A stretch of DNA of 64,000 nt from Mycolicibacterium alvei (GTDB taxonomy: Bacteria; Actinomycetota; Actinomycetes; Mycobacteriales; Mycobacteriaceae): positions 3,162,001 through 3,226,000 of the forward strand of contig NZ_AP022565.1 of the NCBI RefSeq assembly GCF_010727325.1, in the 5' to 3' direction. This document shows, in pieces, positions 1-15,505 of this stretch. Position 1 is the first letter of the stretch, and each line of letters starts with the position of its first letter. The position numbers and the translations under genes are program-made. The notes under the pieces are model-generated. The model worked only from the letters and a program-made list of their open reading frames with translations. It was not told the origin of the DNA and did not search any database.

Positions 1-298
1 TCGTCAGCACCACGCCGATGTAGTTCAATGGCAGAACATCAGCTTCCCAAGCTGAGAACGCGGGTTCGATTCCCGTCACCGGCTCCAGGTTGAACAGGGC
101 ATTCAGCCCTGGGTTGTCGGCCCGGCTGTTGAGCCAGTACCCCGCCCGTACCCCGAGTTGCCTGGCCTCGGCGCGGGTGACGGCTGGTAGCTTCCCAGCG
201 TGGCTCCCGAAATAGGTAATCGATCCGGTGAGGCCCATGCCGACATAGATCATCCCGTTCGGGTACGTCATCTTGTAGACCTGCTTAGGTCGCGGCAT
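1..298 (-). CDS. GIY-YIG-like nuclease protein, 3' end spans attL (partial)
   Basis: This leftward frame starts at ATG 298 and stays open to the window edge. The N-terminus contains VYKMTYPNGMIYVG, a good fit to the GIY-YIG signature, followed by GLTGSITYFGS. The last ~30 residues are just the antisense translation of the tRNA, so the present C-terminus is an integration artefact. If the element is closed into a circle at the 45-base repeat, the frame runs instead into the right end of the element and stops after 98 codons, ending near VSDNAW. The intact protein is thus probably a 98-residue single-domain GIY-YIG protein encoded across attP. Whether it is catalytic is not known. Confidence 0.55.
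   Translation of the reverse strand, partial: MPRPKQVYKMTYPNGMIYVGMGLTGSITYFGSHAGKLPAVTRAEARQLGVRAGYWLNSRADNPGLNALFNLEPVTGIEPAFSAWEADVLPLNYIGVVLT
14..87 (+). tRNA. tRNA-Gly (anticodon CCC), integration target
   Basis: A full cloverleaf can be folded: acceptor 14-20/77-83, D stem 23-26/34-37, anticodon stem 39-43/51-55 with loop 44-50 and anticodon CCC at 46-48, T stem 60-64/72-76, encoded CCA at 85-87. The acceptor has one A-C mismatch (A18 against C79). The partial copies at 12955 and 15506 carry T at the equivalent of 79, which would restore the pair, and two other bases at 56-57 of the variable loop. This implies that the 3' half now attached to the host 5' half came from the integrated element. 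Confidence 0.88.
43..87 (+). repeat. Attachment-site copy 1 (attL, inside tRNA-Gly)
   Basis: First of three 45-base copies of the tRNA-Gly 3' half, from the anticodon stem to CCA. It differs from the other two copies at three positions (56, 57 and 79). The first 13 bases, through CTTCCCAAGCTGA, are the same in all three, so strand exchange most likely took place there, in the anticodon region typical of tRNA-targeting tyrosine integrases. Confidence 0.85.
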
Positions 299-379
299 GC
301 TGCAAAAGCGTAGCGACCGGCACCAACGCCGCCGACAACTTCTTAGATGAAGGTAAGTAGGACGTTTTCCAGCGCAGCG

Positions 380-1147
380 TCAGCGGTATCGTCTGCGGTA
401 CCGCTCAGCCGAATCGTCGCGGACGGCGGTTGCGAAGTCTAGGCGCTCATCTCGCAGGTAGCCTGCCACGCCAAGCGCGGTGGCGAGGGCACCAGCCACC
501 CAGGCCGTCCATGCGAGTTTGTCCCCGGTGAACGCCGCCACCCAGGGCGACAAGAATAGTGCGAATCCCGTGATGGCGAGCGTCAGGAAGTTGTGGGTGG
601 GCTCGGAGGCGAGCAGCGACCAGACGGCGACCACGGCGATCATCCCGCCCAGACCGATGGTGACTGCGGTCCCGGCTGCCGTCGAGTGGAACTCGATACC
701 CAGAAGCACGCTGGCGAGACCGATGATCAACGCGAGCCGCCCGATCCAGTAACTCCAGGGGTGTCGCAGCCGTTGGCTGTCTCCCAACTCGGTGATGCCG
801 TACTCGGTCGGCGTCCTATCGTGCGTCCAGGCGATGCCACCGAGAATTATGGCGAAGCTCCCGGCGACCCAGCACGTCCAGGAGGCCCCCCGGTCGTAGC
901 TGTAGGCGTTGCCAATGAACGGAACGGTGAACATGGCCAGGCCGACGACGACCAAGCCCCAGTGATCGGGGGTCCGGTTGTGGGCGAGGACGGACAGCGC
1001 CCCGAAGAAGGCGATGAATGCGCCGAAGCCGAAGGCGAATCCCTCCCCAACCTGAGTCGAACTGAACGCGAACGCCGACACCACAGCGCAGATGCCGATG
1101 GCTACTGCTACCCAGCCGATCCATGTCTTCGAATTCACAACTAACAC
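380..1147 (-). CDS. SPW-repeat-like integral membrane protein
   Basis: A 255-residue protein with about eight hydrophobic segments and an Arg-rich C-terminal tail (ERYRRRYR). The sequence is internally duplicated: a segment with PFIGNAY then WTCWVAGSFAIILGG in the first half matches one with SPWVAAFTGDKLAWTAWVAGALATALG in the second. The SPW core and the paired helices resemble SPW-repeat membrane proteins, whose function is unknown. The annotated GTG start is weakly supported; a GTG three codons downstream is also possible. It lies between the left attachment site and the integrase, where such elements often keep accessory genes. Confidence 0.65.
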   Translation of the reverse strand: MLVVNSKTWIGWVAVAIGICAVVSAFAFSSTQVGEGFAFGFGAFIAFFGALSVLAHNRTPDHWGLVVVGLAMFTVPFIGNAYSYDRGASWTCWVAGSFAIILGGIAWTHDRTPTEYGITELGDSQRLRHPWSYWIGRLALIIGLASVLLGIEFHSTAAGTAVTIGLGGMIAVVAVWSLLASEPTHNFLTLAITGFALFLSPWVAAFTGDKLAWTAWVAGALATALGVAGYLRDERLDFATAVRDDSAERYRRRYR

Positions 1148-1197
1148 TTAACACCTTTGTCATCAGAACTCTAGGGCATTTACGGGTACCTCTCGCC

Positions 1198-1518
1198 GTG
1201 CTCGCGGCCAGGCACGTCGCCGACGGCAAAGAACTCCGCATCCGCTACGAGGCAGGGGAAAGCATCCGTCAGAATGTCGCCGAGACTGGTTACGGAATCA
1301 CACGCGTGCGCGGACTACTCAAACGGGCGGGCACTACTTTCCGCGAGCGCGGGGCGGCGTCTAACCGTGCAGCGGCACAACATTTCCGCGGTAGGTCGGC
1401 TTCGGCGTGGCCAACGCGCCCAGCGCGGCCATGTCTTCGGTCGCGTCGTCATCGGGGAACAGGTGCACGTACACGTCCAGCGTCGTCCGCACGTTGGCGT
1501 GCCCCATCCGCCCGCTGA
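1198..1518 (+). CDS. Small helix-turn-helix protein (possibly truncated)
   Basis: Residues ~12-50 (ELRIRYEAGESIRQNVAETG through LLKRAGTTFRERGA) look like a compact helix-turn-helix of the kind found in short actinobacterial and phage DNA-binding proteins. After that the frame runs antisense to the integrase 3' end and is low-complexity Arg/Ala/Pro, so the functional protein probably ended near position 1370. No good ribosome site is visible before GTG 1198; an in-frame ATG at 1123 would overlap the start of the membrane protein gene. It may be a relic or a regulator of the element. Function not assigned. Confidence 0.4.
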   Translation: MLAARHVADGKELRIRYEAGESIRQNVAETGYGITRVRGLLKRAGTTFRERGAASNRAAAQHFRGRSASAWPTRPARPCLRSRRHRGTGARTRPASSARWRAPSAR

Positions 1519-2791
1519 GCTTGTCCGGTTTGATCCCCGCCGCGACGCACAGGCTCGCGTAGGTATGGCGGAGCGCGTGGAACTTGAGTTCAGGCGGCAG
1601 CACCGTCGCGCCAGTCGTCCGGTTGGCACGGAGCACAGCGGGCCGGTAGATGGCTTTGTAGAACGTCGCGTGCCGTAGCGGCTGCGTCCAGTCGAGCAGC
1701 AACCGCGCCTCGGCGTCCTCCACCGATAACTTGGCCAAGGCGTCGGCCTGCCGTCGTGCGCGGGCTTTCGCGGTCGCGCTCAGCGGGGCACCTTCCACAC
1801 CCGGCTTGGCCGCTCGCGGGTCGGCGGCGTCGGCGCGGACTCCGCTAGGCCGGGGGCGGCTCAGCACCATAGCTGGCCACAGCGGCGCGGTCGGCTCGTC
1901 GCGGCGCGGGTGCTGCGCGAGGTAGTCCCGCAGCAGCGCCGTCGTCTCGGGCGTCAGTGGCACCCGCCGATAGCTTTGGTCCGTCTTGAGCGGGCCGTAC
2001 TCGACCACCGTGCCGTTGTGCCGGACCGCCTGCGTTACCCGCAGTACTCCTGGCTTCGCCGGGGCGTTCGGGTTCAGCGGTGGGTCCGGCAGTTCGACGT
2101 TCCCCACGGTCAGCCCGCCGAGCTCTGCCGCCCGCAACCCGCCCCACGCCGCAACATGCACCAACACGTTGTACGGCCAAGGCGTGGCGTCAAAGAGTGC
2201 TGAAACTTGCTGCGCCGTGAGGAACTGCGCCGGGTCATCGACCACACCGGGCTTGTTGCCCTTGGTGCTGCGCTCCGTGGGTAGCTTGACGTAATCGGCG
2301 GGGTTCTTCGCCAGCCGGGCATCGACCACCGCCTGCTCCAACACCATTCGCACCGTCCAGAACGCGTGCCGCACGGTCGACGGCTTCTTGCCCGCCTCGG
2401 TGAGCCGGTTGACCCACGCCTGAATGTACTCGCGGGTGATCCTGTTCAGCGGGTAGCCGCCGAACACCGCGTCAATGCCGAGCGTCTTGCCGTCGCCGCG
2501 ACGAGTTGCGGCAGGGGCGAGCGCGTAGCGGTGGTTCTCGGCGTTGTTGCGGGTGTCGGCTTTGCGGGACTCCAACCAGATCGCCGCCGCGTCGCGGAAC
2601 AGCAACTTGCCCTTGGCCGGGTCGAACAGCAGTCCCTGCGCTGCCGCGCTCTCGGCGTTCTTCGCGTAGTCGCTGGCGGCCTTCTTGGTCGTGAACCCGC
2701 CCTTAGAGCGGTCGCGCCCATCCGGTTCCCGCCACTTCGCCACGTAGGTTGTTGCGCCCTTGGTGGTTACGCGCTTCTGTACTCGGGCCAT
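1361..2791 (-). CDS. Tyrosine recombinase (integrase)
   Basis: A 476-residue phage-type integrase expected to insert the element into, and with a partner excise it from, the tRNA-Gly gene. Residues ~1-60 form an arm-binding AP2-like domain (TYVAKWREPDGR), ~60-170 a core-binding SAM-like domain, and ~190-460 the catalytic domain. The active-site set is visible: R220 in GGLRAAEL, K249 in the beta-hairpin, H405 and R408 in HALRHTYASL, H431 in GHANVRTTLDV and the nucleophile Y441. Residues ~290-385 form an Arg/Ala-rich insertion between the K and HxxR motifs that is unusually long. The start codon follows the TAA of the upstream gene directly (TAAATG), so the two are probably co-translated. Confidence 0.95.
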   Translation of the reverse strand: MARVQKRVTTKGATTYVAKWREPDGRDRSKGGFTTKKAASDYAKNAESAAAQGLLFDPAKGKLLFRDAAAIWLESRKADTRNNAENHRYALAPAATRRGDGKTLGIDAVFGGYPLNRITREYIQAWVNRLTEAGKKPSTVRHAFWTVRMVLEQAVVDARLAKNPADYVKLPTERSTKGNKPGVVDDPAQFLTAQQVSALFDATPWPYNVLVHVAAWGGLRAAELGGLTVGNVELPDPPLNPNAPAKPGVLRVTQAVRHNGTVVEYGPLKTDQSYRRVPLTPETTALLRDYLAQHPRRDEPTAPLWPAMVLSRPRPSGVRADAADPRAAKPGVEGAPLSATAKARARRQADALAKLSVEDAEARLLLDWTQPLRHATFYKAIYRPAVLRANRTTGATVLPPELKFHALRHTYASLCVAAGIKPDKLSGRMGHANVRTTLDVYVHLFPDDDATEDMAALGALATPKPTYRGNVVPLHG

Positions 2792-3115
2792 TTATGAATC
2801 CTGTTCTCTCGGTGTGTCGGTGACGTCTCGCCAGGTCTTGCCGCTGATCGCGGCGCTGATGGTGGATTGGGTGACGCCGTAGATGTAGGCGAGGTCGGCC
2901 TGGTCCCACCGGCCCGCCGCGTAATCGGCGCGGATCGCCCGCACGTCGTCGGGGTCCAGCTTCACCCGTCGCTCGCGGCCCTGCGGGGTCGTCTGTTCCG
3001 GCCCGCCGTCGTGGCCGTTCGTGGACTGCTCGGGCGGTTGCGGCACGGGCTGCCGGGGTGTGCTCGGCACGGCGACCTTGCGCCCGTCCGGTGTGCGGCG
3101 GATTAGCGGCCTCAT
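2792..3115 (-). CDS. Helix-turn-helix protein, candidate excision/control factor
   Basis: A 107-residue protein with a Pro-rich N-terminal half and a C-terminal helix-turn-helix (ADYAAGRWDQADLAYIYG then VTQSTISAAISGKTWRDV), a form common in phage DNA-binding proteins and HNH-associated domains. It is sandwiched between the serine recombinase (ATGA overlap at 3112-3115) and the integrase (no spacer). That position suggests it controls integrase direction or expression, but no specific excisionase family can be named from sequence alone. Confidence 0.7.
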   Translation of the reverse strand: MRPLIRRTPDGRKVAVPSTPRQPVPQPPEQSTNGHDGGPEQTTPQGRERRVKLDPDDVRAIRADYAAGRWDQADLAYIYGVTQSTISAAISGKTWRDVTDTPREQDS

Positions 3116-3795
3116 GCGCTGGCCTGCTCGGCTTCTGTTGCGGCGGTGGCGCTCGCGTAGATGCGCCGCACAGTGGAGGCCTGCCAGTTCGGTCGCCCTG
3201 CAGGCGACAGGATGCCCTCGGCTTCCAAGGCGGATGCGATCTTAGTGAAGCTCAGACCGGCGTCGCGGTCCAACACGATTCGTCGAACCACTCCCGGCTT
3301 CGCCAGTCGCGGACGGCCCAACCGCTCACCACGTGCCCGCTTCGCGGCGAGACCGGCCCGCGTGCGCTCTGATATCAACTCGCGCTCGTACTGTGCGAAG
3401 TTGACCAGGTTCATCGCCACCATGCGGCCCGCCGCAGTCGTCAGGTCCACGCCGAGGTCCAACACGACTAGCGACCAACCTTGCGTGGTGGCGGCTTCGA
3501 TTATGTTGGCGGCGTTGACTATCGACCGCGATAGCCTGTCGAGCTTCGCCACCACAAGGCCGTCGCCTTGCCCGGACGCCAACAGTTCCAACACTTCCCG
3601 CAGCTGCGGCCCGATCATCTTGCCGGTGACGGCCGCGTCTGTGTGGTGCTCCACGGTCCAGCCCCGGCGCTCGGCTTCGGCGTCGATAGTCGTGCGCTGT
3701 GCCTCCAACCCGTTGCGCTTCTCGGCTTGTTCTTCGGTGCTGACACGCGCATATCCGAACATCAACGCGCCCCGCGCCTTGGCTGCCGCGTTCAT
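3112..3795 (-). CDS. Serine recombinase of the resolvase/invertase family
   Basis: A 227-residue protein. The N-terminal catalytic domain has GYARVSTEEQ with R17 and the nucleophile S19, VVAKLDRLSRS, and YERELISERTRAGLAAKRARG, followed by a C-terminal Hin/resolvase-like helix-turn-helix (RDAGLSFTKIASALEAEG). Its length matches resolvases and invertases rather than large serine integrases. The start at 3795 is chosen because its ATG overlaps the TGA of the upstream gene (ATGA). It may resolve multimers or replication products, or flip a segment; no pair of obvious inverted res-like sites was found. A second recombinase in an element that already has a tyrosine integrase is notable. Confidence 0.9.
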   Translation of the reverse strand: MNAAAKARGALMFGYARVSTEEQAEKRNGLEAQRTTIDAEAERRGWTVEHHTDAAVTGKMIGPQLREVLELLASGQGDGLVVAKLDRLSRSIVNAANIIEAATTQGWSLVVLDLGVDLTTAAGRMVAMNLVNFAQYERELISERTRAGLAAKRARGERLGRPRLAKPGVVRRIVLDRDAGLSFTKIASALEAEGILSPAGRPNWQASTVRRIYASATAATEAEQASA

Positions 3796-4049
3796 GCGTC
3801 GCCCTGTCGCTCGGCGTGCTCGACGTGCCACGCGTACGTGCCGACGTACTGGACAACATCATCTAGCTCGTCGGTCGTGCCGAGCATCGTATTGTTTTCG
3901 CCTGCAACAAATATCCACACGCCGTGGTCGCGGACGAGCGTCAGCGCCGCGTAATCGGTTAGCGGTCCCGGCAGCTGGCGCAGGCCCATCGACTCGAATG
4001 GCGGCCCACCCTTGGTGAGCCAGTCGGCGGGATAGCGGATGTTCTCCAC
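3792..4049 (-). CDS. Small hypothetical protein of the island
   Basis: An 85-residue acidic protein ending EHAERQGDA. The GTG start at 4049 is chosen because GAGGAA stands a few bases upstream and the longer frame upstream of it has the composition of non-coding shadow. Its C-terminal half (DELDDVVQYVGTYAWHVEHA) may form a helix. No family is recognised. It overlaps the serine recombinase start by four bases and is probably translated with it. Confidence 0.6.
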   Translation of the reverse strand: MENIRYPADWLTKGGPPFESMGLRQLPGPLTDYAALTLVRDHGVWIFVAGENNTMLGTTDELDDVVQYVGTYAWHVEHAERQGDA

Positions 4050-4135
4050 GTCGGTTCCTCTCGTCGGGGCGGAAACGGTCGTAACCGCCTTACGCCCCGA
4101 AACGGTACGCCAGTACCACATGCGCGTCTGCCGCT

Positions 4136-4681
4136 TCACCTGCGCTTTTGCTTCCGTCTGCGAACTCCTGCACGTCGGTTGGCGCGGGCTACGGCGGCTA
4201 GCGCGTCCTCTTCTGTGACTAACTGGCCCGTAGCGGTGCGCGGGGGCGGTTCGGCCCACTCGGGTACGCCCGGCGCGCCCGCATGGCCCTCGTCCACAGG
4301 AGCTGCCCGCCGGGGTGGGTCTACCGGCGCTGCTGGGGCGGGTGACCCGGCGGGGCCAGCGGGCCGTGTGGCTCGGCGGGGCGGGGGCTTCGGCGCGGGC
4401 TTGCACCGGGGCATAGGCGGTGCCTGTGGCTCAGGTATGCCCCTGAAGGCGCGCACGAGCATCATGTCCTTTGCAAACTCCAAGCGTTGCTGTGCCTTTC
4501 GCCGTACTTGAGGTGCCCGCCCGCCGTGGACGGCACACACAGACCCGCCGCGGATCGCAAAAGCGCCGCATGGCTCGCCATCACTTGCCCGGTGTGCCTT
4601 GCAAAGTCGCGGGTGCTGTGTGGCCATGCGCTCCGCGTAGGTGGGTGCATTTGTGGCAGCCCAAGGCTGTTTCTCAGCCAT
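4136..4681 (-). CDS. Cys/His zinc-finger-like protein with HGG-APQV motif
   Basis: A 181-residue protein. Residues 27-57 hold C27, C38, C49 and H52 in the spacing C-x10-C-x10-C-x2-H, with the sequence CAVHGGRAPQVRRKAQQRL, a pattern seen in small proteins of phages and integrative elements and likely to bind one metal ion. The rest is a Pro/Ala/Arg-rich tail ending KQKRR, probably disordered and nucleic-acid binding. AGGAC lies eight bases before the ATG. It lies downstream of the 47-residue ORF and upstream of the recombinase genes. Exact role unknown. Confidence 0.65.
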   Translation of the reverse strand: MAEKQPWAATNAPTYAERMATQHPRLCKAHRASDGEPCGAFAIRGGSVCAVHGGRAPQVRRKAQQRLEFAKDMMLVRAFRGIPEPQAPPMPRCKPAPKPPPRRATRPAGPAGSPAPAAPVDPPRRAAPVDEGHAGAPGVPEWAEPPPRTATGQLVTEEDALAAVARANRRAGVRRRKQKRR

Positions 4682-4710
4682 ATTCTTTGTCCTAGCACTT
4701 ATCGGTCACG

Positions 4711-4854
4711 TCAACGCATTCCCGGACGCCAGGCGGCTTCTGGCGGTCTCGGTTCACCACGCGGGTTTCGTCGCGGTCGCGTGGGATGCCCACGGCGGGT
4801 TCGCTTCTGGGGCCGCCACCAATACGGCGGTTCCAGCGGGGTGAATACATTCAT
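4711..4854 (-). CDS. Small basic protein (47 residues)
   Basis: Too short for most gene finders, but ATG 4854 is preceded by a strong GAGGAGGAA ribosome site. The product starts MNVFTPLEPPYWWRPQKRTR and is very Arg/Pro-rich, so it may bind nucleic acid. The longer open frame upstream of this start covers the GTAC-rich repeat region and looks non-coding. Real expression is inferred from the ribosome site and from the position just before the zinc-finger-like gene. Confidence 0.45.
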   Translation of the reverse strand: MNVFTPLEPPYWWRPQKRTRRGHPTRPRRNPRGEPRPPEAAWRPGMR

Positions 4855-4926
4855 CGGTTCCTCCTCACGCGCGGTGCGCCGTCGCTTCGATTCTCGGCCA
4901 AGGCGTATAGCCAAGGCGGCGTTCAA

Positions 4927-4964
4927 GGGGGTACGGGGGGGTACGGGGGGTACGCCGTACCCCC
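4927..4964. repeat. GGGGGTACG tandem/inverted repeat cluster A
   Basis: Three spaced copies of GGGGGTACG-type sequence in direct order, followed after CGCC by an inverted GTACCCCC. With cluster B it occupies the ~250-base non-coding stretch downstream of the primase gene. G-tracts of five to seven bases interrupted by TACG could bind an initiator protein or form unusual secondary structure. Candidate replication or partition site of the island. Confidence 0.6.
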
Positions 4965-5064
4965 TCTGCGGCGCGAAACCTTCAGCCTCGCGCGTATAAC
5001 GCGAATGGTCGATTGACGACGACCAGGTCTTTTTAGGACGGCCTAAGTCACGAACTTTCGGCGC

Positions 5065-5096
5065 AAGGGGGTACGTTCGTACCCCCGTACCCCCTT
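5065..5096. repeat. GGGGGTACG repeat cluster B
   Basis: One GGGGGTACG is followed by CGTACCCCC twice, so the block contains an inverted pair around a TT centre plus one further copy. It lies within 13 bases of the 3' end of the primase gene and ~100 bases from cluster A. The shared unit in both clusters is a GTAC core flanked by five G or C. Confidence 0.6.
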
Positions 5097-5108
5097 CGAG
5101 CCGCTTAT

Positions 5109-7493
5109 TCATCGGCCCGCCTTCAGCCACACTCGGTGGCCCGGATTCCCTGTGCCTTCAATGGGTTCTAGTTCAACGTCGCCGACTGCAATAAGTCGCG
5201 CGAGAGCCTCGTCCACATACTCCTTGTCGCGGCCAAACTGTCGCCGCAACCTCGCCTTGGCTTGTCCGTTGTTGCCACGCAGCTTCTCTCGTATCCGCTC
5301 GGACACTCGCGCAATGGTCTTGTCGTACTTGTAGTCCTCTTTGGCGTCCTCGCGTTCAGCCTCTGCGTGTCCACGTCGCCTGTTCGTGTCCCTCGCCTCG
5401 GTGGCCAAAGCATTCTGCACGCTCGCACGCGTCGAGTTCGACACCCTCATCACGACCCCGGCTAGGTCCCAGTCCTCCTCGGTGACTTTGTCGGTCCGGC
5501 CGTCTAGCCACATGAGTCCCGCAGCGACCTTCAACCGCGTCAGCGTCGAATGGCCGCCAAAACTGTCGACCTCACCGTGGTGGAACCTGTAACGGGCCTC
5601 ACGGATCAACGCGCCCACAGCCCCCGGTACCCCTAACTCGTGTTCCCGCAACATGTTTTCGTTCGCGTCCCGGTCGACAGCCTTCAGATTCGGCCACTTG
5701 GTCCTCGTGCCAGATGTATCGGTGCTGCGTTCATCTACCGGCATAGGCCACTCCTGCAACACTTTCTGCCCCGGCCAGGCGGGCAGGTCCTCTGGTCGCG
5801 GCATCTGTGAGTAGACGACCGGCGCCCACAGGATGCGTTGCGGCGTACCAGCTGCCGCTTGCGTTCCGTTGAGTAGCCATCCCGCCAGTTCCGGTTGAAT
5901 CCCGAGAACTTGGCAGAACCGATACTTGTGGGCGCGCACGGGTATCCGATGCTTGGGGTCGGCGTAGCCAAAGCCAAGTTGTTCGCCGGTGAAGGTCTTG
6001 CGCCACTGGCTCATCAGCGGGTTGCCGGACCGCTTCGACAGCGCCTCAACAGATTCGATCTCCGTGTCGTTGAACAGCAGCGTGTCTGTCACGGTCACTA
6101 TGGTCTTGGTCTTGGTGTCGCGGTAGGCGTATTGCTTAGCGATCCCCTCCGCGCTGCCGAGCGTCGTCACTTCAGGTTCCGGTGTCACCGCGACCGCTGC
6201 CTTGGCGACACCAACCGAACTGCTCTTGCCGCCGCTACTCGGACCCACCAAAGCTACGTGAAGATTCAGGCTTGCACGCGCCGCAGTGGTTCCCGGCAGC
6301 GTCACATACGGCGGTATCGAGCAGATCGCACGCACAAGGTGCACCGCCAAGACACCACGCGGGTCCATCTGCTGCGCCAACGACGACGCGTATATGTGGC
6401 GCAGGATGTCCCGTGCCGACCAGAACGCCTCCAACTCCGCATCGGTCGGCAAGTCATCATTGCGGTGAGCCCGGTCTGGGTCAGCCTGCGCGACGGCCAT
6501 CGCCCACCGCACGACCCGCACGTACTCGTCGCTCAACTGAGCCACTCGCTCGGGCTCGTCGTCGGCGCTGAACTCTGCTGCGTAGGCCGAGTGCAGCGTG
6601 CCGAACAACTCGCCCGCCGGATAGCAGCCGGCCATCGCCTCCGCGAAAGCCCACGGCGCAACTCTCACGAGGCTGTCGTGGCGGCTTTCGCCGTTCGCAA
6701 TGCGCTCGCGGAACTGCTTCACCGGACCTTCGACTCCGTGTCGGCATCCCTCCCGGCCACACTCGCCCCGCGCGGTGTGTGTGTCGAGAAGCGCTTCCGT
6801 CTCCGCATCGGTCAGCGGGTCGGCGCTCGCCCCCGCCTCGGACAAACACTCCCGCAACACGTCCGGCATCCGCCCCACCGGGCCGGTCCTGACCTGTCGG
6901 TACTCCCCGCCTTTGGTCTCGGCGTCGGGGTGTGGTGTCGGGGCGGCGATGATGACGCCGTTCTTACCCCGGAACTCTCCGACGACGGTGAACGCGCCAG
7001 CGCTGTTGCCGTACTCCTTGCCGTCGTCGGGTAGCAAGAAGATGTAGTGCCCTCGGTCGCCCTCGCCGCGCGTGCCCTGCACCGCCTCGGCACTCAACAG
7101 AGCGTCAGCCAGGTCGCCGCGACCCATGACCCTCAGAGCGTCCAGGTTGTTCATGTCGTAGTCGAACACCCCAGCACCAGAGCGGCCGCAGTGTAGGGCG
7201 ATCCCGTGATTTGAGTTCTCGGACCACCACTCGCGTATCTGCTCGGGGTCGCGGCTAGACAGCTCCTGCCACCGACCGCCCACCACACTGCCAGGGTTCT
7301 TGGTGCCACTCTTCACCGGCAACACGAACCACCCCGCCTCGGCATAGGCCAAGGCCGCTTCCAACAGAGTCATGCCGGTCACGTCCGGAAAGTGCAGACC
7401 TTTTTGCGGCACAGACTCACCGTTCGTGATCGCTAGGTACATCGGGTTGCGCCGCTTGCGCTTTCGGCGTTCTGTCCGTTCAGGTAAGCTCAC
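5109..7493 (-). CDS. Primase-polymerase / DUF3987-like helicase replication protein
   Basis: A 794-residue protein with two parts. Residues ~40-210 match the bifunctional primase-polymerase fold of mobile-element replication proteins: GWFVLPVKSGTKNP, then HCGRSGAGVFDYD with the metal-binding pair D111 and D113, then GDRGHYIFLL with H149. Residues ~355-760 form an ATPase/helicase-like domain with Walker A GPSSGGKS at 417-424. A cysteine-rich patch (CGREGC) lies near 245-250. It is expected to start and drive replication of the excised island. GTG start is supported by AAGGAC upstream. The repeat clusters just downstream are candidate origins. This type replaces the Rep/MCM proteins of other actinobacterial elements. 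Confidence 0.85.
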   Translation of the reverse strand: MSLPERTERRKRKRRNPMYLAITNGESVPQKGLHFPDVTGMTLLEAALAYAEAGWFVLPVKSGTKNPGSVVGGRWQELSSRDPEQIREWWSENSNHGIALHCGRSGAGVFDYDMNNLDALRVMGRGDLADALLSAEAVQGTRGEGDRGHYIFLLPDDGKEYGNSAGAFTVVGEFRGKNGVIIAAPTPHPDAETKGGEYRQVRTGPVGRMPDVLRECLSEAGASADPLTDAETEALLDTHTARGECGREGCRHGVEGPVKQFRERIANGESRHDSLVRVAPWAFAEAMAGCYPAGELFGTLHSAYAAEFSADDEPERVAQLSDEYVRVVRWAMAVAQADPDRAHRNDDLPTDAELEAFWSARDILRHIYASSLAQQMDPRGVLAVHLVRAICSIPPYVTLPGTTAARASLNLHVALVGPSSGGKSSSVGVAKAAVAVTPEPEVTTLGSAEGIAKQYAYRDTKTKTIVTVTDTLLFNDTEIESVEALSKRSGNPLMSQWRKTFTGEQLGFGYADPKHRIPVRAHKYRFCQVLGIQPELAGWLLNGTQAAAGTPQRILWAPVVYSQMPRPEDLPAWPGQKVLQEWPMPVDERSTDTSGTRTKWPNLKAVDRDANENMLREHELGVPGAVGALIREARYRFHHGEVDSFGGHSTLTRLKVAAGLMWLDGRTDKVTEEDWDLAGVVMRVSNSTRASVQNALATEARDTNRRRGHAEAEREDAKEDYKYDKTIARVSERIREKLRGNNGQAKARLRRQFGRDKEYVDEALARLIAVGDVELEPIEGTGNPGHRVWLKAGR

Positions 7494-7531
7494 GATTACG
7501 TCCTTCGGTTGCCAGGCTTGACGGTCGTATC

Positions 7532-7561
7532 GCCCCGGCGGGTTGCCATCCCCACCGGGGC
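7532..7561 (-). terminator. Hairpin between wHTH gene and primase gene
   Basis: Arms of 11 bases (7532-7542 and 7551-7561) pair with one mismatch around an eight-base loop. It sits directly after the 3' end of the wHTH gene and ~40 bases before the primase start. It has no T-run, so it is either a weak terminator or an attenuator that lowers primase expression. Confidence 0.45.
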
Positions 7562-7568
7562 AACACTC

Positions 7569-7805
7569 TTATTGGGCTGCCGCAGTTTTCGGCAGCCGAT
7601 AGACGCCCGGTTGCTTGCGGGACTTGATCCAGTCCCAGCCGTCTTGCTTGCTGTAGAGGTTGTAATTGCCGATACGCGTCGGCAGAATCTCCCGGCGCAG
7701 AACCGCGTGCTTGATTGCACGTCGCGTCACGGGGATGCCCTCGTCGTAGTGCAGCCACTCCCAGAGTTCTTGCTCGGTCATGGTCGGCTTCTGGCTCTCG
7801 TCCAT
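7569..7805 (-). CDS. Winged helix-turn-helix DNA-binding protein (excisionase-like)
   Basis: A 78-residue protein. Residues ~10-65 (ELWEWLHYDEGIPVTRRAIK, then EILPTRIGNYNLYSKQDGWDW) have the helix-turn-helix plus wing typical of Xis/MerR-like small proteins, in which the wing ends in a tryptophan-rich helix. ATG 7805 is preferred over an upstream in-frame start because GAGGA stands seven bases before it. It is the gene just before the primase, so it may control replication or excision. A long imperfect inverted repeat lies immediately upstream. Confidence 0.65.
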   Translation of the reverse strand: MDESQKPTMTEQELWEWLHYDEGIPVTRRAIKHAVLRREILPTRIGNYNLYSKQDGWDWIKSRKQPGVYRLPKTAAAQ

Positions 7806-7837
7806 CACTGTCCTCGGAAAAATCGGCGCGCAAACAA

Positions 7838-7902
7838 AACTGGCGCGCATCGAAAGCGCACCCTCTAGGTATGTGAGGGATTGCCTTCGACGCACGCCAG
7901 TT
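7838..7902. repeat. Long imperfect inverted repeat upstream of the wHTH gene
   Basis: Seventeen-base arms (7838-7854 and 7886-7902, beginning AACTGGCGCGCATCGAA) pair with two mismatches across a 31-base spacer. It starts 33 bases upstream of the wHTH start codon. It could be an operator for a dimeric regulator or a leader hairpin in the transcript. The remaining bases up to 8067 show no gene. Confidence 0.55.
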
Positions 7903-8067
7903 CAGATCGGTTTAGCGCGTCGCGTCGGTCCGTAGAATGTTGCTGACGAAACAGCTCGTCTATGTGGCCTTTCGCGGGCGATATTCAGTTGTCGATACCT
8001 ATACCTTACCCGGCCCGCAGCCGCGCCGCCGATTCAACACCGACGAACGCGGCAGCGGCGCAGCGGG

Positions 8068-8358
8068 TTACGTGTCGGCGGGTTGCACCCTGTGCTTCTT
8101 GAGGTACCGTCGCCAGGCCTTCGCCATGCGTACCTCTCCCATCCCGTAGGTGGTGTAGTCGCCTCGGTAGCCGCCACCCCACAGTTGCGCGAAGATGCGG
8201 CCGAATGTGGGCCCATCGATGTTCTCGATGCCCGCGCGAATCGCTGCGTCGATGATGGGCGCCCACTCGGGGTCAGCCCGCCACGCCGCATCCCGGTCGA
8301 TGATCATGCCGCGCAGACTGCACAGCTGGCTCGCACCGATCTTCCACTCCGCGCTCAT
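8068..8358 (-). CDS. Hypothetical protein of the island
   Basis: A 96-residue protein with three Trp-rich helices (WRADPEWAPIIDAAIRAG; RIFAQLWGGGYRGDYTTYG; MAKAWRRYLKKHRVQ). The basic C-terminus suggests nucleic-acid contact. It overlaps the upstream gene by four bases (ATGA), so translation is coupled. No family recognised. Confidence 0.6.
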   Translation of the reverse strand: MSAEWKIGASQLCSLRGMIIDRDAAWRADPEWAPIIDAAIRAGIENIDGPTFGRIFAQLWGGGYRGDYTTYGMGEVRMAKAWRRYLKKHRVQPADT

Positions 8359-8858
8359 GATCCGGCCTTTGTGACGTTGATGCCCAGCGGGCGCAAATCC
8401 TCGCGCAGGATCGCCACGAGCTTGTCACAGCGATCATCGGAGCCCCCGGCCCACAGCGCAAGGCGGCGAACCGTCACCCTGGTTTGATCCTCCGGCGACG
8501 GCTCGACCTTCTCCGTCAATCGTTCAGCCTTCTCCTTGCGTGGAGTTTTCGGCAGTACGTCGCGGGTGATGCGTCGCCACGAGCCGTACTTGTCCCACGC
8601 GTGGGACACTTCGCTCTTGCTCTTGAACTTCTCGGCGAGTTGCATACGCCGATGGATCTCGCTACGGCTGACGCCGTACTCCTTCACGACCCTCGCCACC
8701 AACCCGCGCCGCAGCTGCTTCTTGTCGTCGCGCTGCTTCAACAGGACGTTGCCAAAGTCCCAACGGGCCTCGATGCTCCTGCCTTCATCCTCACGGATGG
8801 CCTTGTCGTGCGGGTCCAGCTGGCCCAAGACCACGGCGTGCTCGTCCGTCTCTTTCAT
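8355..8858 (-). CDS. Helix-turn-helix hypothetical protein (DUF3102-like, uncertain)
   Basis: A 167-residue charged protein. Residues ~20-75 (EARWDFGNVLLKQRDDKKQL, then RVVKEYGVSRSEIHRRMQLAEKF) contain a clear helix-turn-helix and resemble plasmid and element proteins with a ParB-like or DUF3102-like DNA-binding segment. The start at ATG 8858 is chosen because GGAGGA lies just upstream; the longer frame runs through a long inverted repeat and is unlikely to be translated. First gene of a two-gene unit. A role in control of replication or copy number is possible but unproven. Confidence 0.6.
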   Translation of the reverse strand: MKETDEHAVVLGQLDPHDKAIREDEGRSIEARWDFGNVLLKQRDDKKQLRRGLVARVVKEYGVSRSEIHRRMQLAEKFKSKSEVSHAWDKYGSWRRITRDVLPKTPRKEKAERLTEKVEPSPEDQTRVTVRRLALWAGGSDDRCDKLVAILREDLRPLGINVTKAGS

Positions 8859-9239
8859 GTGTTCCTCCGTTCTATGCCTCTCCCGGAGAAACCAAAGGTG
8901 CCCTCGGAGAAGCAAACTTTCACCTGCACTTCTGTACAGACTTGGTTTGTCTCTCCGAGGGCACCCTGCGTCAGCTTGCTGCGCCTCAGTCTGTTCTGGT
9001 CCCCCGCCCCGTGGGGCGGATGCCGTCACCGAAAGACTGTTCATCCCGCCGAGCCGATCACGGCGGTCCCCATCAGTCTAGCCAGCCATCACCGAGCGTG
9101 CCAGGACCGTCCTTAACCCGGCGAACTTGTGCACGCCGTCCACAACTATCAGGGGTGCCGCCCGCCCCGGCCTACCCGGTCGCCGTCCCGGTGCTCGGCA
9201 CGCCGCTACGCACCACGACGGGTGCCAGGGCGATGTGTT
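8859..9239. other. 381-base non-coding stretch with a long inverted repeat
   Basis: No convincing gene is seen on either strand. It holds a long imperfect inverted repeat (8897-8965) and a short perfect hairpin with 7-base stems (9004-9010 and 9013-9019, CCGCCCC and its complement). The hairpin follows the 3' end of the leftward gene at 9240-9875 by ~220 bases, too far to be its simple terminator. Confidence 0.6.
8897..8965. repeat. 21-base imperfect inverted repeat
   Basis: Arms 8897-8917 and 8945-8965 pair with two adjacent mismatches across a 27-base spacer; the shared core is CTCCGAGGGCACC. It lies 39 bases upstream of the start at 8858, the same layout as the repeat at 7838-7902 although the arm sequences differ. 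Possible operator, leader hairpin, small RNA or packaging-type site. Confidence 0.65.
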
Positions 9240-9875
9240 CTACGCCCAGGCGTCGGGGTTCACGTCGGGCTCGGGGTTTGGCATGATCCGCGCGCCGGGT
9301 AGCAGGTCCGCTTGTTCATCCATCTCACTGATGATGAAACCGTCGTCGGCCATCACACCCGCCTGCTCGCGGCACGGTACACAGCACGCGAAGATCAGTA
9401 AGAACCGCCCCCGCAGCAGCGGAACCCGAACCGTCGCCCCGCCGCAGTCGTCCGCAATATTGATCTGGCATCCGTTCGCGATGTCGTGTAGCCAATGCAG
9501 GTGGGGCAATGTCGCCGCGAACTCATCAGGCTTGCCCTTGCAGACGAAAGCCCGTTCGTCGCCAACGAAATGTACATACGTTTCACGGTCGCGTCTTGGC
9601 CCTCGAAGGGTATTGCCGGCGGTGTTGACATACCGCATGTCGCCTCCGCGGCCGAGGCCATGGTGGACGTTGCTTAATGTCCGCTCGGCGAGGTCGTACA
9701 TCCTCGGTGACCAAGCCGGGTCGAAAAGCGAGCTTGCGTCATCGCCAGACCTTGTCGACCGCACCACGATCCGCTTGGCGTCAAGCATCGCCTGCACAAT
9801 GGGGTGATCGGGGTCGGGCGACTCACCCATCCGATATTTGTCAAAGAGTTGTCGGCTTTGCGGATCCATGGTCAT
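9240..9875 (-). CDS. Hypothetical protein of the island (211 residues)
   Basis: No family recognised. The protein is soluble by composition, with a Cys-rich segment (FACCVPC) near residue 165 and an acidic region after it. AAGGAG stands eight bases before ATG 9875, inside the end of the upstream wHTH gene, with which it overlaps by four bases. Together with that gene it forms the first leftward unit, divergent from the capsid-like gene. A metal-binding or redox role for the cysteines is only a guess. Confidence 0.6.
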   Translation of the reverse strand: MTMDPQSRQLFDKYRMGESPDPDHPIVQAMLDAKRIVVRSTRSGDDASSLFDPAWSPRMYDLAERTLSNVHHGLGRGGDMRYVNTAGNTLRGPRRDRETYVHFVGDERAFVCKGKPDEFAATLPHLHWLHDIANGCQINIADDCGGATVRVPLLRGRFLLIFACCVPCREQAGVMADDGFIISEMDEQADLLPGARIMPNPEPDVNPDAWA

Positions 9876-10204
9876 GTAGTCGCTCCTTTGTTGGTGTCGT
9901 CGTATCGGGACATGATCCAGTCGAATAGTCCTTGTGTTGAGAAAAACAGCGCGCCAGACATTCTCACGCCACTTAATTCACCCTTGGCCGTCGCGGCGCG
10001 AACATAGTTCAGGCGCACTGGCACACCGAGAACATCGTTCAGCCAGCGGTGTGCACCGGCTCGACCTCGGATAGTTGGCACTTCCGACACGACCACGCCG
10101 GGCGGTGGTTCATGCCTCTTTGGCACTGGCTCGACCTGCCAATCTCTTGCAAAGGTTTCCGCTCGTCGCGCCGTATTCATCGGCGGTGCAGCGCTATTCG
10201 TCAT
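9872..10204 (-). CDS. wHTH excisionase/repressor-like DNA-binding protein
   Basis: A 110-residue protein with a disordered N-terminal 45 residues and a DNA-binding C-terminus: HRWLNDVLGVPVRLNYVRAA, then KGELSGVRMSGALFFSTQGL. The ATAKGEL segment then GALFFST resembles helix two and the wing of excisionase-type proteins. It is transcribed divergently from the capsid-like gene over a 144-base gap, the usual place for a lysogeny or satellite switch regulator. No ribosome site precedes the ATG; a TAGAAT box seven bases upstream fits a leaderless mRNA. Confidence 0.6.
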   Translation of the reverse strand: MTNSAAPPMNTARRAETFARDWQVEPVPKRHEPPPGVVVSEVPTIRGRAGAHRWLNDVLGVPVRLNYVRAATAKGELSGVRMSGALFFSTQGLFDWIMSRYDDTNKGATT

Positions 10205-10217
10205 ATATTCGATTCTA
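10205..10217 (-). promoter_or_regulatory. Leaderless promoter -10 element (leftward)
   Basis: On the minus strand, TAGAAT (10217-10212) lies seven bases before ATG 10204. This spacing puts the transcription start at or next to the A of the start codon, as in the leaderless mRNAs common in mycobacteria. The missing Shine-Dalgarno site supports this. Confidence 0.5.
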
Positions 10218-10348
10218 GCCGCTAACCGCCCCGGTCCGCCGACATTAAGCTGCCGACCGCCGCGAAACTAACAGTCGGCGTCTTTGGCTCAGCGCGGCAG
10301 TGTGTTTCAGGCGTAGGTTCTCCCTAACCGCTACACAAGGAGACGACT

Positions 10349-11464
10349 ATGGTGAACCGCAGCGGAACGCAAACCCGCGGTGATGTACTTGTCAATCAGC
10401 TCGCGGACGGCACAGACCTCTCGGTCATCTGGGATGAGCTGACCACCGCCTTGGCGGAGTACAACCAGCACCGAAGCGCCATTGCCAACTTGCTGTCGTA
10501 CAAGACAATCAACGCCGCCGACGCTGTAGCGCAGGACGTGCAAGCGGAACTTTTTGAGGAGGCCACAGAATTCGGCGCTCCCCGTGGCATTTCCGATCCG
10601 TCGTACTTAAAGCTCGGCTACAGCTTCAAAGACCACGACCTCGCGCTACGGATGACCTGGCGCTACCTCCGCGATGCGACGCGGGAGCAGGTCGACAACC
10701 GCATCATCCGCGCATTCGAAGCCGATAACCGGCTCACCACTGGCACGATCCTTCAGCGGTTGTTCTCCAACGTGGTGCGTACCAACGACTTCGGTCATTC
10801 GGTTTACGGACTGTGGAACGGTGACGGGATGGTCCCGCCCGCGCACCTGGGCCGCACGTTCGACGGTGCACACACCCATTACCTCACGACCCAAAGTGTC
10901 ACACTCGACCCCGTTCATGTCGAGGCCGGCATCAACCATGTGAAGGAACACGGCTACGGCTCAACACAATCCGCGCGGTTCCTGCTCTTGGTACATCCGA
11001 ACGATTTGGAGTCGTCGAAGATCACGAGCTGGCGGGCGGGAGTGACGTTCGATACCAGTAAAACTCCCAAGTACGACTTCATCCCGTCCTCCAACGCCCC
11101 GGCGCGGCTCACCACCGAACGCGTGGAAGGGGCTGCCCCGCCGCCCGATTACAACGGCCTAGAGGTCACCGGCAGTTACGGCAAGGCGTTGGTGATCGAA
11201 AGCTACTTTATCCCCGCAGGTTGGGCGGCCATTGTTGCGACTGGTGGGCCCAACAGTGAGTCGAATCCCATTGGTTTTAGGGAACATACCAACCCGGCCT
11301 ATCGCGGTCTGCGCGCGATTCCCGGTGTGGGGCCGTACCCGCTGCAAGAGTCGTTCTTGGCGCGTTCGTTCGGCGTCGGCATTCGGCACCGTAGCGCGGC
11401 CCTAGCAATTCAGATCACGGGCAGCACGACCTACACGCCGCCCGTCATCGTCGCCCACAGGTAA
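10349..11464 (+). CDS. Major capsid-like protein (HK97-fold candidate)
   Basis: A 371-residue protein with AAGGAG eight bases before the ATG. Features that suggest a phage major capsid protein are: an N-terminal charged helical region, LRMTWRYLRDATREQVDN followed by a long helix, the motifs GLWNGDGMVPPAHLG and HTHYL, HGYGS followed by FLLLVHPND, and a C-terminal strand-rich stretch (GKALVIESYFIPAGWAAIVA; RSFGVGIRHRSAALAIQI) typical of the P-domain. Its length also fits. No protease, portal, terminase or scaffold gene lies beside it; only a 78-residue ORF follows. Alternatively it may be another shell-forming protein such as an encapsulin relative, or a capsid-interference factor. The assignment is by pattern, not by a search. 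Confidence 0.55.
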   Translation: MVNRSGTQTRGDVLVNQLADGTDLSVIWDELTTALAEYNQHRSAIANLLSYKTINAADAVAQDVQAELFEEATEFGAPRGISDPSYLKLGYSFKDHDLALRMTWRYLRDATREQVDNRIIRAFEADNRLTTGTILQRLFSNVVRTNDFGHSVYGLWNGDGMVPPAHLGRTFDGAHTHYLTTQSVTLDPVHVEAGINHVKEHGYGSTQSARFLLLVHPNDLESSKITSWRAGVTFDTSKTPKYDFIPSSNAPARLTTERVEGAAPPPDYNGLEVTGSYGKALVIESYFIPAGWAAIVATGGPNSESNPIGFREHTNPAYRGLRAIPGVGPYPLQESFLARSFGVGIRHRSAALAIQITGSTTYTPPVIVAHR

Positions 11465-11469
11465 CCACG

Positions 11470-11706
11470 ATGAGCTTCGACCGTAAGTGGTACGGCGACG
11501 GCGAACACGCCCGTGGCTGTGAGCACACCGGCGCCACCGAGTTCTCCTGGGGACCGGGGCCGGCCCCGCCAGGGCGGGAGTACGCCCCGCCGAGCGAGGG
11601 TGGCGCATATGTGGGCCGGTCGCCGGACATGACCGATCCGCCGAAGGGCAGGTACAGGCGCAGCGGTGCACCACGCGGTTACTCGGGCGACCCCGTGACC
11701 CACTAA
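11470..11706 (+). CDS. Small hypothetical protein downstream of capsid-like gene
   Basis: A 78-residue Gly/Pro-rich, charged protein (MSFDRKWYGDGEHARG at the N-terminus) with no predicted membrane segment. It starts five bases after the capsid-like stop codon and is almost certainly co-transcribed with it. It could be a small head or decoration factor; no family recognised. Confidence 0.5.
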   Translation: MSFDRKWYGDGEHARGCEHTGATEFSWGPGPAPPGREYAPPSEGGAYVGRSPDMTDPPKGRYRRSGAPRGYSGDPVTH

Positions 11707-11753
11707 TAGTGGAGCGTAAGCCGCTAGTAGCACGGCCAAGCAGAAGAAGCGCG

Positions 11754-12674
11754 CTAGCTCGCGTCTGCCATTGCGGCCTCAGCCAACACCGCGAAGCCGA
11801 AATACAGGTGGCTGAGACTGGTGATCGCAAGCAACACGGCGTGCCTGTAATAGGCTGCGTTCGCTTCGACCTCAAGCAATTCGGATAGCGACTCCTGCTC
11901 GCCAGAGAAGTGAATGGTGTCGCCGTAGTTGAACGTCAGAATCAACTTCTGCGGATCGATGTTGCAGTAGCTGAACGGGAAGTCATCCGGCGCTGGGTGA
12001 GGACCGGACTTGCCAACCTTGGTCGCGACGATGTTCTCCAACAGCCGATTCATTAGCTTGCCGCGGGCCTTTGCCCACTGTGTTACAACATTTTTCGGTG
12101 CTTCCTGTTCGGCAGCGGGTAGCAGCTTGATCGCCTTCATCAGCAGGCCCTTTGTCCGGCTAAATGACGCTGTCTCGTCGTCGCTGTGCAGCTGGCGGAA
12201 GGCAAGCGAGGTGCCCCCAAAGGCTTCCTCAGTCGGGAACGACAATTTGACGTCGGGTTGGCCGCCCTTCTTCACGGACCAACTAAGGCCGGTCTCGTCG
12301 TTGAGCGCAGAGTATCCGGCGAGCCGCCGACATACCTTTGCGTAGCGACGCAACACGGTCTTGTCGTCATCGGTGAGGCCTGCGAGGGCTGGGAAGTCAG
12401 CCGGGTCCGGCAGAGCGAACGCGTAGCTCAGCATCTCCCAGCGGTGCGCGAAGCCGTTGTTCTTGCCCACGGCATGCTCGATCAGCGGCGGGTCGAACAG
12501 CAACGGATACGGGTGGATCAAACCCTCAAAAGGCATGAGGGTGAGAGTCACGTCACCGGTCAGCGGGTTGACCTTGCTCGCGGTGATCTTGCTAGCCATC
12601 TTGATCGCGTGGTGTTCGAAGGTGATCACAGCAGCATCCCTGTACTTCGCCGGGAGGTCGCCTGTGGTTGTCAT
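11754..12674 (-). CDS. Orphan cargo protein next to the right attachment site
   Basis: A 306-residue protein facing the capsid unit and adjacent to the right end of the island, where satellites and prophages commonly carry anti-phage or fitness genes. The N-terminal ~65 residues are strand-rich (ITFEHHAIKMASKITASKVN), the middle is helical with Lys/Arg-rich patches, and the last ~40 residues are hydrophobic (YRHAVLLAITSLSHLYFGFA), so it may touch membrane. GAGG precedes the ATG. No catalytic motif or known family was recognised; a defence role is inferred only from position. Confidence 0.65.
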   Translation of the reverse strand: MTTTGDLPAKYRDAAVITFEHHAIKMASKITASKVNPLTGDVTLTLMPFEGLIHPYPLLFDPPLIEHAVGKNNGFAHRWEMLSYAFALPDPADFPALAGLTDDDKTVLRRYAKVCRRLAGYSALNDETGLSWSVKKGGQPDVKLSFPTEEAFGGTSLAFRQLHSDDETASFSRTKGLLMKAIKLLPAAEQEAPKNVVTQWAKARGKLMNRLLENIVATKVGKSGPHPAPDDFPFSYCNIDPQKLILTFNYGDTIHFSGEQESLSELLEVEANAAYYRHAVLLAITSLSHLYFGFAVLAEAAMADAS

Positions 12675-12787
12675 TGCCTCGCCTTCTGTGGTGCATGCGC
12701 AAGTTCTCGCTCATGCGTTCGAGCGACTGGAGCCAGTCTATGACCGTGCTCTGACACGACTCGGCGTGTCGACGGGGGCGTCGTGTC

Positions 12788-12869
12788 CCGGTACCCCGTC
12801 CATACCCCCGACTGAACCCGTACTGCGCCCGTACCGTAGCCGTACCCGACTAGTGCGCTAGCCGTACCT
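12788..12869. repeat. GTACC-rich motif cluster beside the right attachment site
   Basis: Several copies of GTACC or close variants (starting near 12791, 12801, 12820, 12831, 12842 and 12864) fall within ~80 bases, 90-165 bases left of the attachment core. Two GTACCCCG copies also lie near 136-157, on the inner side of the left core. This is the layout expected for integrase or excisionase arm-binding sites. The 280-base gap 12675-12954 holds no gene. Confidence 0.45.
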
Positions 12870-12954
12870 AAGTTGCAGGCCGCGTTGCAATTTGGCTTTG
12901 CTATGCGGCCGATCTACCAGGCGTTATCGCTCACCTGTTCGCGTCTGGAAAATA

Positions 12955-12999
12955 CTTCCCAAGCTGAATACGCGGGTTCGATTCCCGTCATCGGCTCCA
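12955..12999 (+). repeat. Attachment-site copy 2 (attR of the large island)
   Basis: Identical over 45 bases to copy 3 (15506-15550), and 42 of 45 to copy 1. Only the tRNA 3' half is present; the 5' half is missing, so this is not a tRNA gene. It marks the junction between the large island and the 2.55 kb segment. Confidence 0.85.
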
Positions 13000-14065: not shown

Positions 14066-14098
14066 CCACGCCGACGACACATCGAGAGGGGACATACC

Positions 14099-15469: not shown

Positions 15470-15470
15470 C

Positions 15471-15496
15471 GCCGGCGCTGGAACCACAGCGCCGGC
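15471..15496 (+). terminator. Terminator of the TPR unit
   Basis: Perfect 10-base stem (GCCGGCGCTG at 15471-15480 against 15487-15496) with a six-base loop, immediately after the TGA of the TPR gene and just before attachment copy 3. No long T-run follows, which is common for mycobacterial terminators. Confidence 0.6.
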
Positions 15497-15505
15497 ACTC
15501 CATCG

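Follow-up and report, generated by a model that had tools for sequence, protein, structure and literature searches.

Introduction

Candidate phage-inducible chromosomal islands (PICIs) were reported in Mycobacterium by Abad et al. (2023), who defined them by the presence of an integrase and a major capsid gene; the candidates of slow growers correspond to phiRv1 and phiRv2, and transfer is stated in that paper as undetermined (PMC10654092). In the staphylococcal island SaPIbov5 the pentamer positions of the head are occupied by Ccm, which is homologous to the capsid protein of the helper, and a T=4 head is formed in place of the prolate head (PMC8569155). The element described here is a 12.9-kb mobile element of Mycolicibacterium alvei (host genome 6.0 Mb) that spans positions 43-12999 of a 64,000-nucleotide stretch of contig NZ_AP022565.1 (positions 3,162,001 to 3,226,000, forward strand), which is referred to as the window and whose numbering is used throughout. 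A preliminary description of this DNA had proposed an island with integration, replication and regulatory genes plus one capsid gene, and the att repeats, Pfam and PHROGs agree with that composition. The element is probably a packaged, helper-dependent satellite with heads that depend on its own major capsid protein (MCP). The proposal that such satellites were not yet described in mycobacteria is not supported, as the integrase-plus-capsid candidate PICIs of Abad et al. were already on record (PMC10654092). The element itself combines an integrase and a major capsid gene in a non-prophage region. A literature search, mostly of papers outside subscription, found no paper on a family with a Patience-type MCP as its only capsid gene.

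The major capsid protein

The capsid gene (10349-11464, forward strand, family F0) encodes 371 amino acids. Residues 3-366 of its product align with PHROG 3990 ‘major head protein’ (E=5.6e-95). By sequence, the protein matches the solved capsids of phages Adjutor (8saj, 1.8e-71) and Patience (8giu, 5.9e-68), and it matches 153 phage records at up to 41% identity, 152 of them with coverage of at least 80%; Pfam and NCBIfam scans gave no match. An AlphaFold2 model (pLDDT 79, pTM 0.77) compared with the PDB using Foldseek was closest to 8saj (TM 0.72) and 8giu (TM 0.70), so that the protein called capsid-like in the preliminary description has the capsids of Adjutor and Patience, and not a non-capsid fold, as its best structural matches. 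The protein is an HK97-fold MCP of the Patience/Adjutor type.

Since the HK97 fold is common to encapsulins and the element has a replication module of its own, an integrative plasmid-like element that recruited the MCP as an encapsulin-like compartment, with no viral helper, was considered. Adjutor and Patience capsids are far better matches to the model (E 1.8e-31 for phage capsids against 6.2e-9 for the best encapsulin, with other HK97 shells far behind), the only recurrent neighbour downstream of the MCP gene is the small protein o78, and a gene resembling those of small terminase subunits (TerS) is present. The encapsulin reading was rejected on the ranking in the fold search and is regarded as very improbable.

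A metal site in Patience-like capsids is formed by H198, H200, E223 and H224 (PMC10635136), and the window MCP keeps these residues as H175, H177, E200 and H201. Among 82 satellite MCPs from Mycobacterium, H200 is present in all 82, H198 in 55, E223 in 51 and H224 in 56, and the site is thus incomplete in some relatives. The hinge of the E-loop in the split hexamers of Patience involves V73 and E78 (PMC10635136), which in the window MCP are replaced by T53 and D58. Position 73 in the same 82 proteins is T in 69, H in 9, L in 1 and a gap in 3, with V in none of the 79 ungapped sequences, and position 78 is D in 53 and E in 18; the 37 phage MCPs compared have V73 in 36 cases and E78 in 34. Judged from these replacements, the altered hinge hints at a changed hexamer.

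Changed hinge residues of split hexamers would also suit a satellite whose MCP supplies the pentons only, the hexons being helper MCP, in the strict manner of Ccm, which occupies pentamers only and is 24% identical to the helper capsid protein (PMC8569155). All domains of the MCP are about equally conserved in satellites and in phages, which is unexpected if hexamer contacts are unused, and a whole shell of satellite MCP is therefore as plausible as pentons only. The strict penton-only arrangement is considered somewhat unlikely, though it carries appreciable weight.

Related elements, ancestry and selection

Relatives of the MCP were found in 96 of 396 Mycobacterium genomes. For 60 hits, taken mainly from the upper range of scores, and for six named loci (four of which duplicate these), gene context was analysed within up to 20 kb, and 20 further hits, mostly weaker-scoring, were added as a check on bias, giving 80 Mycobacterium loci in total; the remaining hits, many of them fragments, were left out of the context analysis with the exception of L006. 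The full kit of MCP, tyrosine integrase, serine recombinase, HGG zinc-motif protein and primase-polymerase (prim-pol) is present in 39 of the 60 first-fetched loci, and, taken singly, the integrase (F2) occurs in 52, the serine recombinase (F5) in 43, the HGG protein (F3) in 52 and the prim-pol (F1) in 54. Among the 20 further loci the HGG protein occurs in 19 and the prim-pol in 18. Gene order and strands are common to most loci, with the MCP gene divergent, and the arrangement that the preliminary description had thought might define a family does recur, in dozens of loci.

A class-wide sample of 394 genomes contained nine with an MCP match, five in Mycobacterium and four in other families, and the latter four loci hold parts of the same kit. 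When IMG/VR was searched with the window MCP, 24 phage-type loci were returned; a search with the satellite alignment returned one locus with the satellite kit (L166) and three that are phages (L168-L170). A further IMG/VR locus (L167) holds an MCP, a weak o78 match and a lysin-B-like match 7-8 kb away. The MCP was not found in the plasmid collection, and a megablast of positions 1-13100 against phages matched only the tRNA/att stretch, so that no helper cos or pac match was obtained at that sensitivity. Before the MCP gene, a search for a conserved operator gave no more than a loose TTTCAGGCGTAGGGT-like stretch, seen in some of the relatives. The elements make up a large family of mobile DNA, for the most part unannotated, that is found in mycobacteria and in other actinobacteria.

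Two other capsid-bearing loci were observed. One (L159, own genome C1:4604001-4624000, 10587-17938) encodes an MCP, a scaffold-like protein, a portal, the large terminase subunit (TerL) and a primase/helicase, and is like a fuller capsid-forming satellite or part of a prophage. The other (L160, own genome C1:1152001-1172000, 3852-11077) encodes a large serine integrase, an excisionase, HNH endonucleases and an HK97-type MCP, and presumably resembles phiRv1-like elements.

In a maximum-likelihood tree, 58 satellite MCPs, the window copy included, were split from 37 phage MCPs with 99% UFBoot support; this tree omitted the satellite-side sequences scoring <=300 bits (L074, L096, L097, L098), the duplicates L003, L004, L005 and L007, and L006. 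In an enlarged tree made with FastTree, which also took in L006, the four sequences of <=300 bits and 20 additional loci, the 82 satellite MCPs of Mycobacterium all fell into a single clade (SH-like support 0.997). With five sequences from other families included, 86 of 87 satellite-side MCPs grouped together (support 0.999), and 71 of 72 had done so in an intermediate tree. The ratio dN/dS of the MCP gene was 0.06-0.15 in seven pairs (pairs with dS >3 or identity >97% were skipped), the lowest among the six core families tested, all of which are under purifying selection. The capsid gene is old in the satellite lineage and is in use.

These results bear on the reading that the element is a decayed prophage which kept its capsid gene by chance. 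Few phage genes are present, the MCP is broken in some relatives (G044, G277, G338 and others), and it occurs without the kit in two loci (L093 and L006), all of which such decay would explain. Dozens of loci with the same kit and order, the separate MCP clade, the purifying selection on six core families, the matching att sites and the intact size run counter to it; the reading was rejected on selection, clade and gene order, and is hardly credible.

Virion genes

Fifteen element proteins were scanned against PHROGs (ORF 3792-4406, which overlaps others, was left out), and none of them matched a family of TerL, portal, tail or lysis proteins. A set of 38 head, tail and lysis queries was taken from Onyinye, Suzy and P3.1, with the MCP and prim-pol set aside and with several unnamed head-module genes included. 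At E<=1e-5 these queries gave no match in the first 66 loci except one ‘hydrolase’ in L083, and no head or tail gene in the 20 further loci, where a single 45-bit ‘hydrolase’ match was returned (the two matches, in L083 and L175, score 44-45 bits). As a positive control, the same 38 queries match 24 of 24 IMG/VR contigs with a phage-type MCP, and in 21 of these contigs they recover TerL, portal or major tail protein. When genes of Patience and Butterscotch and TerL, portal and MCP of the HK97 type served as queries, the loci again yielded no gene for TerL, portal, minor capsid or major tail protein, the reach of such head and tail queries stopping short of a very divergent protein. Five Patience tape-measure matches of 36-41 bits, in ORFs of L040, L053, L055, L069 and L092, look like domains shared with cell-wall enzymes; those in L040 and L069 fall outside the element as delimited. 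A larger form with other phage structural genes, a finding that would have spoken against a satellite, was looked for in 86 related places and none was seen.

The absence of terminase, portal, tail and lysis genes put forward in the preliminary description therefore stands for portal, TerL, tail and lysis. Its remark that even terminase is missing goes too far, given a possible TerS-like protein: ‘no terminase’ is firm for the large subunit only, since relatives of the HGG protein match small-terminase families, the window copy doing so at E=0.034.

With the MCP as the only head-module gene found (no scaffold, protease or decoration gene was found by the queries used, in the window or its relatives), the element might be a capsid decoy or defence island, in which the lone MCP co-assembles with the capsid of an invader and poisons it, immunity being the outcome and packaging incidental. 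The variable end cargo would fit such a role, as would the inhibition of helpers by satellites such as SaPIs (PMC12409344). The conserved replication module with iterons, the narrow element length, the unit-length contigs and the TerS-like gene point instead to packaging, and PADLOC, applied to ten element proteins, returned no defence match beyond ZorA at 0.023 on the MCP. The decoy reading is judged improbable.

Replication module and HGG protein

All seven copies of the iteron GGGGGTACG present in the 64 kb fall within 4927-5094 (no strand assigned), just past the end of the prim-pol gene; they were located by repeat search and form a candidate origin. Among 48 loci with a defined prim-pol end, the densest 8-mer repeat cluster lies 75-282 bp beyond that end in 32, and clusters of at least four copies occur in 27, all 27 of them at 75-282 bp past it. 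The repeat sequence differs between elements though its position is kept, as would be expected of an origin that co-evolves with its replication protein. As the HGG gene flanks the other side, the iterons may alternatively serve as a packaging site (TerS/pac).

The HGG protein (4136-4681, reverse strand, family F3) matches PHROG 3678, a family of unknown function, at 5.3e-11. All 25 aligned HGG proteins match this family at E<=0.1, 19 match PHROG 10899 and 15 match PHROG 2538, the latter two both being ‘terminase small subunit’ families, with a best member match of E 6.6e-11. Phage relatives of one HGG protein are gene 1 or lie near the genome end in many of the 30 matches listed, and small terminases are often located near phage genome ends. 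From these family matches, the HGG protein may be a TerS, and this is offered as a lead.

Element length and head size

Of the 53 loci in which an integrase was called, 13 have tRNA-derived repeats on both sides of a whole element, and these elements measure 11.7-13.6 kb (12.9 kb in the window). Metagenomic relatives were collected by two MCP searches (483 + 850 hits, 120 of each listed; one of the 240 clusters was without a size), and among these matches 62 of 239 MCP clusters have a longest contig of 11.5-14.1 kb, against 10 and 4 in equal flanking bins. In the JGI/ENA subset of the matches listed, 13 of 21 contigs of 8.9-16.7 kb fall at 11.5-14.1 kb. The att repeats can by themselves break short-k assemblies at element length, and for this reason only the 13 JGI/ENA cases are reasonably free of artefact doubt. 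A free or packaged unit-length form likely exists. An NCBI record named Mycolicibacterium elephantis (P0243) was also seen to hold a satellite MCP on a contig of 13,627 bp, approximately unit length, and this contig is a candidate free form in culture.

A more specific proposal is that the satellite MCP, as a long-separated lineage, builds its own T=3-like or very small HK97 head for about 13 kb and takes only portal and tail from a helper. Patience-type split hexamers are said to be able to fill an entire shell only when T is not divisible by three (PMC10635136), and in the satellites V73 is replaced across the clade and E78 in most, while no minor capsid gene was found; the element length also agrees with the 11.8 kb predicted for T=3, for which the 95% range is 8.1-17.1 (PMC7762592). 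On the other side, a T=4 head would suit 13.2-24.5 kb, and T=4 is also the geometry of P4, at 11.6 kb; arithmetic scaling of a T=7 phage of 64.5-70.5 kb down to T=3 yields about 18-20 kb. A T=3-like shell of its own is thought unlikely; if real, it would be a natural case of a small tailed-phage capsid class described as missing.

Proposed life cycle

Under the preferred reading of a packaged satellite, Int would insert the element at tRNA-Gly, and after induction the element would excise and replicate from the iteron cluster beside the prim-pol gene. The TerS-like HGG protein may mark element DNA for the large terminase of a helper, and the element's own MCP, produced from the divergent unit, would combine with portal, scaffold and tails of the helper; the resulting small head would have room for about 12-13.6 kb and shut out the helper genome. 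By analogy with SaPIbov5, portal, scaffold, TerL and tails would all have to come from the helper.

Several observations weigh against this reading. No helper, induction, particle or packaged DNA was seen. The flanking tRNA-derived repeat was not found in 39 of the 53 loci within the range searched, and att repeats in the short-k Logan contigs could, as an assembly artefact, account for part of the unit-length contigs. Some loci are incomplete, several being broken off at contig ends; L093 has an MCP without all four kit partners, and L006 has a partial MCP without the kit and with only a 56-bit piece of integrase, and these two are possible remnants or belong to another context. One locus (L059) is a 5.3-kb remnant, and the MCP of L165, from another family of the class, falls among those of phages, yet has an F3 protein and a serine recombinase nearby, possibly through a second, independent capture of a capsid gene. 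The window HGG protein matches small-terminase families at E=0.034 only, its structural model is of low confidence (pTM 0.39), and nothing significant was returned for it by Foldseek, where Sf6 TerS came out at E 5-7.

In L059, tRNA-Gly att repeats were seen, the integrase gene adjoins the MCP gene, and the full-length MCP frame is kept; prim-pol and HGG genes were not found there. This locus is a deleted form.

Integration site and other genes

The integration target is a tRNA-Gly(CCC) gene at 14-87 on the forward strand, predicted with ARAGORN, and its 3' part forms attL (43-87). The direct repeat D1 to which attL belongs recurs on the same strand as attR (12955-12999) and as a third copy (15506-15550); attR and the third copy are identical across 45 nt, and attL is 93% identical to them. 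With attL and attR as borders the element is 12.9 kb long; because of the third copy it may extend to 15505. The 2.5-kb segment 13000-15505 that separates attR from the third copy carries a gene for a TPR protein (14099-15469), and a full match to it elsewhere was not found among 31 genomes, the own genome included. The integrase of the element may also mobilise this segment, as a passenger.

The genes from the integrase to 9872-10204 are read leftward, and the MCP gene and o78 form a divergent rightward unit. The tyrosine integrase (1361-2791, reverse strand, 476 aa, family F2) is identified by PF00589 (7.2e-13) and PHROG 1 (4.8e-54), the small serine recombinase of the resolvase/invertase type (3112-3831, reverse, 239 aa, family F5) by PF00239 (1.6e-34) and PHROGs, and the prim-pol (5109-7493, reverse, 794 aa, family F1) by PF09250 (1.5e-23) and PHROGs 28894 and 10729, so that each is backed by both collections. 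A small resolvase-type serine recombinase accompanies the tyrosine integrase in most loci of the family (43 of 60), and its role is possibly multimer resolution or that of a switch. Between the two recombinase genes lies a small helix-turn-helix (HTH) protein of 107 aa (2792-3115, reverse; PHROG 517, 5.9e-9), a possible excisionase or regulator.

Beside the prim-pol gene is a conserved AlpA-like protein of 108 aa (7569-7895, reverse, family F4), labelled from its sequence as read, with no match in Pfam and PHROG scans. It is followed on the reverse strand by an ORF of 96 aa (8068-8358; a relative in L040, no PHROG match) and one of 229 aa (8355-9044; no Pfam or PHROG family, relatives in few loci). 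A Cys-rich protein of 211 aa (9240-9875, reverse, family F7) has invariant C144, C165 and C168, and the window copy has no PHROG match; 42 of 60 loci have a Cys-rich protein of about 220 aa at this place, upstream of the probable regulator of the capsid gene (F7, F9 and F11 pooled), and no significant PHROG match was found for these three families. The probable regulator itself, a 110-aa protein divergent from the capsid gene (9872-10204, reverse, family F4; no Pfam or PHROG match), is a probable winged-HTH protein.

Directly downstream of the MCP gene, o78 (11470-11706, forward, family F6) encodes a Gly/Pro-rich partner of 78 aa with an EFSWGxG...EGGxY motif and is present in 26 of 60 loci. 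It was considered as an analogue of gp4 and set aside, as a comparison by eye showed no resemblance to one gp4. The end cargo consists of an SPW-repeat membrane protein of 255 aa (380-1147, reverse; Pfam PF03779, 2.1e-16) at the attL side and an ORF of 306 aa (11754-12674, reverse) at the attR side, the latter with strong relatives in L041, L051 and L061 (393-397 bits) and no family match.

Comparison with known systems

In this family a lone capsid gene is kept by selection, with relatives in about a quarter of the sampled Mycobacterium species. This suggests that satellites widely follow the strategy of taking over a homologue of a capsid protein, of which one staphylococcal island is the case known in detail, and, with the structures of the phage relatives solved, the family is a testable system for the setting of HK97 capsid size.

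P4-like satellites share a primase-type replication protein, nearby iterons and an AlpA-like regulator with the element; they have no MCP and use Sid. The phiRv1 and phiRv2 elements carry a PF05065-type capsid and a prohead protease, and differ from the element in that the window MCP did not match PF05065 and no prohead protease family was found in the element by family scans.

The Patience-like phages (structural group 11) share the MCP family and the metal-site histidines, but have genomes of 64.5-70.5 kb, T=7 split-hexamer capsids, gp4 and a minor capsid protein (PMC10635136), the gene for the last of which was not found in the element. The capsid-forming PICIs (cf-PICIs) of Alqurainy et al. 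(2023) likewise have a capsid of their own and a satellite lifestyle; they encode portal, protease, connectors, TerS and TerL (PMC10690885), whereas the element has only an MCP and at most a TerS-like protein, and the portal, TerL, protease and connector set was found neither among the 15 window proteins nor in the relatives. The MulchRoom and MiniFlayer satellites of Streptomyces phages are also actinobacterial and carry a capsid gene, but with TerS, TerL, portal, scaffold and adaptor and, as described, no evident replicase (PMC10690885).

The candidate PICIs of Abad et al. resemble the element in combining an integrase with an MCP, in the use of tRNA att sites by tyrosine integrases, in the DNA replication genes of some members and in being proposed as phage-inducible; they are a mixed set, some with terminase and scaffold genes, and the description consulted mentions no Patience-type MCP clade, iterons, TerS-like protein or size limit (PMC10654092). 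SaPIbov5 and other cos-type SaPIs with Ccm are alike in that they bring their own version of a phage capsid protein and depend on the helper for head parts, and the element too has a capsid homologue without the rest of the head module. They differ in host and in an unrelated MCP type, and in that Ccm, 24% identical to the helper capsid protein, has been shown to form pentamers (PMC8569155), whereas the MCP of the element, a proposed shell component, is up to 41% identical to phage MCPs.

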